From NCBI RefSeq assembly GCF_000217935.1, contig NZ_AFHI01000006.1:62001-126000 (forward strand): 64,000 nt of DNA, read 5' to 3'. Of the stretch, positions 37,065-39,011 are shown piece by piece; the first letter of the stretch is position 1, and each line of letters begins with the position of its first letter. Origin of the DNA: Rheinheimera sp. A13L. GTDB taxonomy: Bacteria > Pseudomonadota > Gammaproteobacteria > Enterobacterales > Alteromonadaceae. Below the pieces are notes generated by a model that did not search any database, was not told where the DNA came from, and was given only the letters and a program-made list of their open reading frames with translations. Both the position numbers and the translations under genes were made by a program.

Positions 37065-38345
37065 TTAATGGATAACTTTGCCTTGATGGATCACCGCAGA
37101 AATCTTTTGGCTATTGCGAATATCTTCAATGGGTGAGCTATCCAGAATCACCAGACTGGCCTCTGCACCAGCTTGTAAGCCTGCTGGTTTGCCCAAAAAA
37201 AGCCTTGCATCACTGGTCGCACTGGCCAGCGCTTGCCAGGTGGTTAGTCCTGAGGCAACAAACTTTTCCATTTCCCGATGCACAGTAAAACCTTGTAAAG
37301 TGCCATAGTTGCCTGCGTCAGTGCCGCTCAATAACAACACATCAGCCGCCACCAGATGTTTCATCGACAAGTAGTATTTTTCAGTTCTTTGTTTCGCTTG
37401 TTGCTTTTGTTCGGGCGTCATATCACTGGCTGCTTTTTGATAACCTTGAATAATACGGGGGTCTGCTAATTGTTTGGCAAGAGCAGATTGCAGCACATCG
37501 GAGAACATAAACTCATATTCATCGGTATCACAGGCAAGAGTTGGAATAACAACCACTTTATGGGCTGCCAGCCTCTGCGCTAATTCAGCTGTGATCGCTG
37601 CATCATCCGGCAAGTGGGTGATGGCATCAGCACCTGCTGCTATGGCACTGTCGATATCAGCCAAAGTATGAATATGCACTATGGTTTTTATACCCCGCTT
37701 TTTCGCTTCATCCACTGAGGTTTTAAGTAAAGCAGGAGAAAGCGATGGCAAGCTGCCGCCTATAGTACTGACCAGCTTAATCACATCGGCTTGTTTAGCT
37801 GCTAACTCAGCAATCTGCTGCCGGGCTTCATCTTCGCTTTTGATGGTCCGGGTTTTACCAAATTGCGAGCAGTGCCCGCCGGGCGCGGTTAAACAAGACA
37901 AGCTGGTATAGATATCAGCACCAGCTATTAAGCCCTGTTGTTGCAGCCGTCTGTGTTCAAACAGCTGATCTTCATTGCCAAATAAATCAACAAACCCCGT
38001 TACTCCTGCATGCAACACCACTTGAGCTGTGGTGCCTGGCCCCATAATTTCACTTTGAGCATTTGGGCCACGATTACCAAAAGCATGGGTGTGCATATCA
38101 ATCAACCCGGGGATCACAAACTTGCCATTAATATCCAGCTGTTGCCCGGTAAAATTTGCCGGAATACTGTCCAGTCTGGCAATAATGCCGGTTTCATCCA
38201 GCAGCAGATGTTGTTTGGTGATGCTCTGATCGCTGGGGTCCAATAAAGTACCATGGGTCAGAAGTAGCTGCCCGGCAACGACGGGTAATGCTGAAACACA
38301 ATAAATACAGAGGAAAAGTGTGAGTTTTATCAGGCTGTTCTTCAT
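37065..38345 (-). CDS. secreted amidohydrolase family protein
   Basis: A 426-residue metal-dependent hydrolase with a signal peptide (N-terminal MKNSLIKLTLFLCIY, cleavage near VVAG). The metal-binding HTH is in GLIDMHTHAFG; further metal and catalytic positions are HIHTLAD, a later histidine in ITHLPDD and the aspartate in LLSGTDAGNYGTLQG. It belongs to the imidazolonepropionase/prolidase-like branch; the substrate is unknown. Its ATG overlaps the stop of the preceding 25-codon ORF as ATGA, with GGAGGT just upstream, so it should be translated in coupling with the tandem array at 38342-38789. Confidence 0.88.
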   Translation of the reverse strand: MKNSLIKLTLFLCIYCVSALPVVAGQLLLTHGTLLDPSDQSITKQHLLLDETGIIARLDSIPANFTGQQLDINGKFVIPGLIDMHTHAFGNRGPNAQSEIMGPGTTAQVVLHAGVTGFVDLFGNEDQLFEHRRLQQQGLIAGADIYTSLSCLTAPGGHCSQFGKTRTIKSEDEARQQIAELAAKQADVIKLVSTIGGSLPSLSPALLKTSVDEAKKRGIKTIVHIHTLADIDSAIAAGADAITHLPDDAAITAELAQRLAAHKVVVIPTLACDTDEYEFMFSDVLQSALAKQLADPRIIQGYQKAASDMTPEQKQQAKQRTEKYYLSMKHLVAADVLLLSGTDAGNYGTLQGFTVHREMEKFVASGLTTWQALASATSDARLFLGKPAGLQAGAEASLVILDSSPIEDIRNSQKISAVIHQGKVIH

Positions 38346-38419
38346 ACGGCACCTCCATGTGCCGTACCAAGACCGGCAGCCTGCGGCTGTGAAAATTGTC
38401 TATCCTGCCAATTTTTCAT
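38342..38419 (-). CDS. mini-ORF 6 of tandem array, coupled to the amidohydrolase
   Basis: Starts MKNWQDRQFSQPQAAG and ends LGTAHGGAV, with silent changes (GAC to GAT, CTG to CTT) relative to other copies. Its TGA overlaps the amidohydrolase ATG, so it is the last step of the relay. Confidence 0.55.
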   Translation of the reverse strand: MKNWQDRQFSQPQAAGLGTAHGGAV

Positions 38420-38493
38420 ACGGCACCTCCATGTGCCGTACCCTGAAGAGCAGCCTGCGGCTGTGAAAATTGTCTGTCCTGCCAATTTTTCAT
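38416..38493 (-). CDS. mini-ORF 5 of tandem array
   Basis: Identical to mini-ORF 4. Coupled by ATGA overlaps on both sides. Confidence 0.5.
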   Translation of the reverse strand: MKNWQDRQFSQPQAALQGTAHGGAV

Positions 38494-38567
38494 ACGGCAC
38501 CTCCATGTGCCGTACCCTGAAGAGCAGCCTGCGGCTGTGAAAATTGTCTGTCCTGCCAATTTTTCAT
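38490..38567 (-). CDS. mini-ORF 4 of tandem array
   Basis: Starts MKNWQDRQFSQPQAAL and ends QGTAHGGAV. Identical in sequence to mini-ORF 5, indicating recent copy-number change. Coupled by ATGA overlaps on both sides. Confidence 0.5.
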   Translation of the reverse strand: MKNWQDRQFSQPQAALQGTAHGGAV

Positions 38568-38641
38568 ACGGCACCTCCATGTGCCGTACCCAGACCGGCA
38601 GCCTGCGGCTGTGAAAATTGTCTGTCCTGCCAATTTTTCAT
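38564..38641 (-). CDS. mini-ORF 3 of tandem array
   Basis: Starts MKNWQDRQFSQPQAAG and ends LGTAHGGAV; serine replaces proline at residue 10 relative to copies 1 and 2. Coupled by ATGA overlaps on both sides. Confidence 0.5.
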   Translation of the reverse strand: MKNWQDRQFSQPQAAGLGTAHGGAV

Positions 38642-38715
38642 ACCGCACCTCCATGTGCCGTACCCTTTAGAGCAGCCTGCGGCTGTGGAAATTGTCTGTC
38701 CTGCCAATTTTTCAT
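38638..38715 (-). CDS. mini-ORF 2 of tandem array
   Basis: Same length and phase as mini-ORF 1; starts MKNWQDRQFPQPQAAL and ends KGTAHGGAV. One silent GCC to GCG change breaks a stem pair in the hairpin at its end. Coupled by ATGA to mini-ORFs 1 and 3. Confidence 0.5.
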   Translation of the reverse strand: MKNWQDRQFPQPQAALKGTAHGGAV

Positions 38716-38789
38716 ACGGCACCTCCATGTGCCGTACCCAGACCGGCAGCCTGCGGCTGTGGAAATTGTCTGTCCTGCCAATTTTTCAT
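38712..38789 (-). CDS. mini-ORF 1 of tandem array (first, 25 residues)
   Basis: First member, with its own ribosome site AAAGGA seven bases before ATG 38789. The peptide starts MKNWQDRQFPQPQAAG and ends LGTAHGGAV. Its TGA overlaps the start of mini-ORF 2 by two bases. Whether the peptide itself has a role is unknown. Confidence 0.55.
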   Translation of the reverse strand: MKNWQDRQFPQPQAAGLGTAHGGAV

Positions 38790-39011
38790 TCTTAATCCTT
38801 TAGTTCAAACGGCTTATTGTGGAAAAAAATATTGCTCAGAGGCCCACACAAATGAGCCACCAAACTTTGTTTACACCACTTAGTCGTAGCAAAAAGGGAA
38901 AAGGTTTGAATGTGTTTCAACTACTTATAAAAAATTGTCTGCCAAAGGTGTCTCTGTTTTTATCCTTAACACTTGGGCCCCAAGGTTAGTTTGGCTGTAT
39001 TTGTCAGTGGG

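Follow-up and report, generated by a model that had tools for sequence, protein, structure and literature searches.

A dispersed repeat with a short open reading frame and three hairpins lies exactly on the start codons of unrelated genes in Rheinheimera and Sedimenticola

The minus strand of the window, the 64,000-nucleotide stretch of Rheinheimera sp. A13L DNA analyzed here, carries six head-to-tail 74-bp units at 38346-38789, each with a 25-codon open reading frame (ORF), directly before the gene for a 426-aa amidohydrolase (37065-38345, minus strand; Pfam Amidohydro_1 match). The question raised by this locus is what such an array is, and what it may do to the gene on whose start codon it ends. 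TRF described the array with a period of 74, 6.1 copies, 93% matches, 0% indels and a score of 765. Because 74 bp is 25 codons less one base, the TGA of each unit overlaps the ATG of the next, and the units translate as MKNWQDRQF[S/P]QPQAA..GTAHGGAV. The minus-strand ORFs lie at 38712-38789 (unit 1, MKNWQDRQFPQPQAAGLGTAHGGAV, its TGA overlapping the next ATG), 38638-38715 (unit 2, ..AALKGTAHGGAV), 38564-38641 (unit 3), 38490-38567 (unit 4), 38416-38493 (unit 5) and 38342-38419 (unit 6, whose TGA overlaps the amidohydrolase ATG). GGAGGT occurs in 6/6 units, a Shine-Dalgarno-like AAAGGA was recognized from the sequence before unit 1 (38796-38801, minus strand), and unit 4 (38567-38494) and unit 5 (38493-38420) are the same without a difference. 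An earlier note had described the six ORFs joined by ATGA overlaps, the sixth stopping on the amidohydrolase ATG, the GGAGGT sites with the separate AAAGGA, and the identity of copies 4 and 5, and all of these were confirmed. Scans around the array gave one promoter-like site, on the other strand (2.7 in shuffles), and two terminator-like sites (2.4 in shuffles), nothing usable in either case. The window array matched no Rfam family at the gathering score and had no match in the plasmid, phage and E. coli collections; a 25-base pattern had none in viral contigs.

One account of such an array is that replication slippage produced an ordinary tandem repeat in front of a single gene, and the varying copy number and the two identical copies are in line with it. 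In a DNA search of 60 genomes, 11 gave matches, namely the genome of the window and 10 of the other 21 in the genus. With the array as probe, the window genome showed two further places with the unit, and these close copies on two other start codons (E 3e-55 and 6e-19) place the array beyond chance. At one (L002), two units precede gspM (Pfam T2SSM), whose upstream neighbor looks like gspL; at the other (L003, genome G000), one unit is fused in frame to a YnbE-like lipoprotein. Across Rheinheimera, units were found on the start codons of five genes, those for the amidohydrolase, GspM, the YnbE-like protein, RlmM (NCBIfam RlmM) and a DUF6691 protein. The idea that the array is a property of one gene was thus replaced by membership in a dispersed family. 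A pattern scan of one genome per species (84,980 species) returned 26 stretches, from Rheinheimera, Sedimenticola and two Gammaproteobacteria MAGs. As a separate observation, a Rheinheimera subfamily opening with AGCAAGAAAGTGCAGGA (L115-L118) is placed after a repeated stretch, CTTTCTTTTG...AAGTATCCAA. Single copies on many other start codons, together with the clean empty sites described next, refute slippage as a full account, and its probability is close to nil; slippage can explain the growth of an array, not the family.

Comparison of orthologous genes provided sites with and without the unit. The start of rlmM is filled in 6/22 genus genomes (1 to 4 units) and empty in the other 16, with the sequence reading AAATAAC-ATGAAGC when empty and AAATAAC, two units, ATGAAGC when filled (AAATAAC followed by ATGAAGCAAC in G000, and the same two flanks around two units in G001). 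For gspM, 16 loci were read among the 22 genus genomes, and 8 were filled and 8 empty. The filled gspM sites keep the ATGA overlap, as in G016, where one unit stands between the GTGAAAGC and ATGAGCC that are adjacent in the empty site of G015; insertion at this stop/start overlap turned one old overlap into two. At both rlmM and gspM, therefore, the unit enters at ATGA without loss of sequence. ATGA is present at both ends of the insert and once in the empty sites, which fits either a 4-bp duplication or units that themselves end in ATGA. A close ortholog of the amidohydrolase (94-100% identity) occurs in 3/22 genus genomes, with 6, 2 and 1 units, and no empty site was seen among these three. 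The single unit (L022, genome G012) has been fused to the amidohydrolase by a deletion, so that the enzyme now begins at the ATG of the unit, and the native start codon has apparently been lost in both in-frame fusions, L003 and L022. The earlier proposal of a changing copy number was borne out, with 0-4 units at rlmM, 0-3 at gspM and the three counts at the amidohydrolase; the number of units may, as the note suggested, also tune the enzyme downstream.

The placement on start codons is also seen in a second genus. A covariance model (R1), with E-values from a short calibration, gave 64 matches in three Sedimenticola genomes, forming 47 clusters. Of the 34 clusters with at least 60 bits, 30 end on an ATGA or GTGA that opens an ORF of at least 88 codons, a cut set after the ORFs had been seen because it is the length of the shortest of the 30; the same is true of 1/13 clusters below 60 bits, and the background in these loci is 531/1,891 ATGA/GTGA (0.28). 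Orthologues present in two or three genomes are counted once per genome among the 30 genes. The exceptions are two clusters before ORFs of 19 codons (G060 C17 and G062 C122), a truncated copy (G060 C4:44003) and a longer-tailed copy (G061 C36). The genes with a unit on the start include prfA and ksgA, both above the NCBIfam cut-offs, and a cca-like gene below its cut-off (best E 6e-101), the last assignment coming from a database search of the L058 gene only. The start of the cca-like gene bears an element in L041/L058, L158, L167 and L176, in lengths of 62 and 74 bp, and this is probably an old insertion common to several genomes.

At E 0.001, R1 matched 20/22 genomes of the window's genus (its own included), and, in surveys with stricter filters, 45/195 genomes of the order of Sedimenticola and 91/369 genomes of the class (own included). 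Relatives with different stems and identical loops occur across Gammaproteobacteria. Start-codon copies made up 2/20 of the class-level loci given to the frame test described below (L214 and L216), and the other class-level loci read include copies in tRNA T-arms. In these the element lies between GTTCGA and ATCC (L207, L213, L219, L220, L222, L223, L225, L226, L229 and L127), and 8 of the 10 T-arm loci were scanned with ARAGORN, which identified a single tRNA-Ser or tRNA-Arg gene in every one of them. The T-arm is a second preferred site of the element's relatives besides start codons. A further relative (L210:1501-1576) appears to be inserted within a coding sequence, presumably that of a ribosomal protein L11 methyltransferase, and weaker ORF-less relatives form tandem arrays that are apparently intergenic in L028 (226-bp repeats), L122 and L125. 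In 10 family loci scanned with Rfam, no family reached the gathering score on the elements; the matches over threshold in L127 and L128 (tRNA, 5S rRNA and isrC) lie away from them.

The differences between units had been called mostly silent, but the S/P and GLG/LQG/LKG changes alter amino acids. For a set of 44 distinct units of 78 nt, taken from Rheinheimera, Sedimenticola and their relatives, pN/pS in frame was 0.949, compared with 0.969 and 0.981 in the other frames, and no purifying selection on the unit peptide was found. The reading frame itself is kept. An early in-frame stop occurs in 1/44 of these units and in 41 and 24 of them in the other frames, counts that share common ancestry and are not independent. 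The frame test used 43 rows with one start codon at the beginning of the unit and a second at its end, the latter opening 60 codons or more. The ATG-to-ATG distance was 2 mod 3 in 41/43 rows, and the stop overlapped the second start in 39/43, with lengths of 62 (2 rows), 71 (4), 74 (32) and 77 (1); because the related copies share ancestry, this amounts to only a few independent length classes, perhaps four. Three of the non-overlapping rows are misreads by the filter, at inner ATGs in L078 (65) and L160 (73) and inside what appears to be a coding sequence in L210 (72), and the overlap is 39/40 when these are set aside. In the fourth, L079, the frame closes after 20 codons, 11 bases early. The earlier view that the units persist as reading frames is thus supported; their persistence as peptides is not.

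These results bear on whether the unit encodes a conserved signalling or regulatory leader peptide, acting as an attenuator or as a functional small protein. Two distant genera share the peptide MKNWQDRQF, as might be expected of such a leader, but conservation of the DNA and RNA suffices to explain this. A pN/pS value close to that of the other frames, and the ORF-less relatives with the same hairpins, make a conserved leader peptide very improbable, and the suggested leader-peptide array, in the attenuator sense, was left without support. The companion suggestion, a translational relay, fits well with the exact insertion at start codons, the ATGA overlaps and the in-frame fusions.

Each unit consists of three covarying hairpins, repeated every 74 bp on the minus strand. 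Hairpin 1 of unit 1 (38762-38785; arms AAAATTG and CAATTTT, GGA in the loop) has changes on both sides in 3/8 pairs, two of them only in the single divergent sequence of L050, and its outermost pair does not form in unit 1. Hairpin 2 (38747-38759; CAGCC-GCA-GGCTG) has such changes in 2/5 pairs, and hairpin 3 (38715-38736; TACGGCAC-AUGGAG-GTGCCGTA), with an ANGGAN hexaloop, in 4/8. Hairpin 3 of unit 1 includes the Shine-Dalgarno sequence of unit 2, GGAGGT (38721-38726), of which GGAG is looped out and GT is paired; throughout the window's units, the loop GGA forms part of the Shine-Dalgarno sequence that follows. Together, 9/21 proposed pairs change on both sides in the structure alignment A1, which holds 35 hand-picked, well-formed units (34 of 48 distinct units, L028 being outside these 48, and one from L050). 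The covariation was 0.137, compared with 0.071 in shuffled alignments (0/500 reach it) and at most 0.046 in slid controls, a comparison that favours the structure over its slid versions because the structure was drawn from the hand-picked units themselves.

The loops are more constant than the stems. In alignment A2 (120 matches in 94 of the loci, 116 distinct elements; the class of at least 61 bits is the first 69 rows), the ANGGAN hexaloop of hairpin 3 is present in 102/116 distinct elements, 58/68 of those with at least 61 bits and 44/48 of the weaker ones, and these 102 carry 46 different 5' arms. GGA occurs in the loop region of hairpin 1 in 66/68 and 45/48 elements of the same two classes. 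In the weaker elements the loop columns A, G, G and A hold 2.0, 1.85, 1.66 and 1.71 bits, and seven of the eight 5' arm columns hold 0.03-1.12 bits, with the closing pair conserved. These weaker relatives show that the hairpins can exist without an ORF. Over distinct helices, G-U exceeds A-C by 42 to 17 (p 0.0015, in an alignment fitted to the model), and such an excess points to the sense RNA. It is 22 to 4 in the weaker elements (p 0.0005) and not significant in those with at least 61 bits (20 to 13, p 0.30).

One alternative is that the unit is a selfish element only, without a regulatory role, which persists at start codons by rebuilding the Shine-Dalgarno sequence and the ATG and thus causing no harm, with hairpins that serve the movement of the DNA. 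Its dispersal in unrelated genes, the relatives in T-arms, the unconserved peptide and the lack of a significant G-U excess among the stronger elements would all agree with this. The excess of G-U over A-C in the weaker relatives, which points to sense RNA, argues against it, as do the fixed ANGGAN loops beside variable stems, which match a known RNA-binding site, and the orthologous positions common to several species. We consider a purely selfish element unlikely, although it is the strongest of the rival explanations. A further candidate, a REP element mobilized by RAYT, is not supported, as no clear copy lies beside the Y1-transposase loci examined. Y1_Tnp gave 31 matches in 4/4 genomes; the 20 of these that were examined contained a lone, weak match to R1 (21 bits, E 0.0017), and no mobilizing enzyme was found in this way.

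The loops resemble the binding sites of CsrA/RsmA-type proteins, and these as well as the three hairpins had been missed in the earlier note, whose interpretation is partly supported overall. The published SELEX consensus for CsrA is RUACARGGAUGU, the RsmE site is an ANGGAN hexaloop, and most SELEX hairpins have four or fewer contiguous pairs (PMC7652899). The Sedimenticola stretch ACAGGGAUGU matches the SELEX core, and ACAUGGAGGU of the window matches ANGGAN with AC and GU flanks. For hairpin 3 of the Sedimenticola form, a loop of only four bases is predicted. With eight or nine contiguous pairs and a predicted energy of -10.7 to -18.2 kcal/mol, hairpin 3 is longer than most SELEX ligands, and both points count against the CsrA reading. 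csrA was found in 8/8 genomes tried, among them genus genomes with few R1 matches (G003 and G015), so its presence discriminates little.

If CsrA does bind, the array could mainly titrate it, with the ORFs incidental. RsmZ is a CsrA-titrating RNA of the CsrB type, with repeated GGA loops. Each unit offers two GGA loops, up to 12 in six units, and Rfam gave two weak RsmV matches to the window array (19.7 and 14.6 bits, compared with a gathering score of 100). A sponge would not need the exact placement on start codons or the keeping of a frame, and many copies are single units, so that we find titration as the main role improbable. The unit also differs from CsrB and RsmZ in being readable as an ORF and in belonging to the mRNAs of ordinary genes, where it occupies start codons; it shares with CsrB the repeated GGA motifs in hairpin loops (PMC7652899).

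We favor, with somewhat better than even confidence, the interpretation that the dispersed element is a translational-coupling leader, probably under CsrA, similar to idlP-iraD but portable and chainable. An element of about 75 bp inserts precisely at an ATGA, either that of a start codon or that of a stop/start overlap; the native Shine-Dalgarno sequence of the gene would then drive the 21-26-codon ORF within the inserted element, and the last hairpin of the element would give the gene a new Shine-Dalgarno sequence and ATGA junction. Expression would thereby survive the insertion and become coupled to the small ORF. With the new Shine-Dalgarno sequence inside hairpin 3, the gene or the next unit would be translated mainly by ribosomes finishing the preceding unit, which would open hairpin 3, stop at the TGA and restart at the overlapping ATG. 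Published coupling was strict in 13 of the 14 overlapping gene pairs tested (PMC6728339); for intact units, translation and the strength of coupling are inferred. Since the ANGGAN and AGGA loops are of the CsrA/RsmA type, CsrA would be expected to hold them and block each restart, so that units and gene alike would be repressed in the manner of idlP-iraD, and tandem copies may add both coupling steps and CsrA sites. Points against this interpretation are the early stop in L079, the G-U excess that falls short of significance in the stronger elements, the failure to find a mobilizing enzyme at the Y1-transposase loci examined, and the weaker relatives whose hairpins exist without the ORF.

The closest known system is E. 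coli idlP-iraD, a proven example that combines CsrA control with a short ORF, a gene start overlapping it and a Shine-Dalgarno sequence that is masked (PMC5574718). In both, the stop of the short ORF overlaps the start of the gene and RNA structure masks the Shine-Dalgarno sequence (PMC5574718), and GGA sites lie in the initiation region of the ORF, with regulation by coupling, which is proposed in the case of the unit (PMC5574718, PMC7652899). However, idlP-iraD is a single native leader, and the unit is a dispersed repeat that occurs at numerous genes, with as many as six copies at one of them; the unit also has a GGA-loop hairpin at its end, unlike idlP-iraD as far as the available text describes it, and CsrA binding, demonstrated for idlP-iraD, is presumed for the unit. 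The engineered bicistronic design likewise places a second ribosome site in a first cistron, and the opening of structure for that second cistron is attributed to the ribosome translating the first (PMC6302717); the unit differs from it in being natural, dispersed and chained. The repeats of the MITE, ERIC and RPE type are small, non-autonomous and structured, and some have ORFs fused in frame; TA ends, together with terminal inverted repeats, mark most of those listed, which lie between or inside genes, and none is tied to start codons in the available part of PMC2229807. REP/BIME sequences with RAYT transposases (PMC2817692) are also dispersed palindromic bacterial repeats, and the unit differs from them in that no clear copy was found beside the Y1-transposase loci examined.

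Among the papers listed by searches of an open-access library, none described an element of this kind, and a peptide fragment and two core DNA strings returned no papers there. It is possible, though we hold this only tentatively, that the unit is a previously undescribed mobile element whose targets are start codons, where it puts in place a portable, chainable module of post-transcriptional control, with copy number as an evolvable dial. If so, the module would bring together a small ORF, a masked Shine-Dalgarno sequence, CsrA-type hairpins and an ATGA junction, and unrelated genes would become subject to CsrA and to translational coupling. Accounts of small mobile repeats usually place them between or inside genes, whereas this unit sits on start codons and rebuilds the start, as a natural counterpart of the engineered bicistronic design. 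The clean pairs of empty and filled orthologs make the effect of the element directly testable, and the family illustrates a way in which a single sequence could connect unrelated genes to shared RNA-level regulation without promoters.
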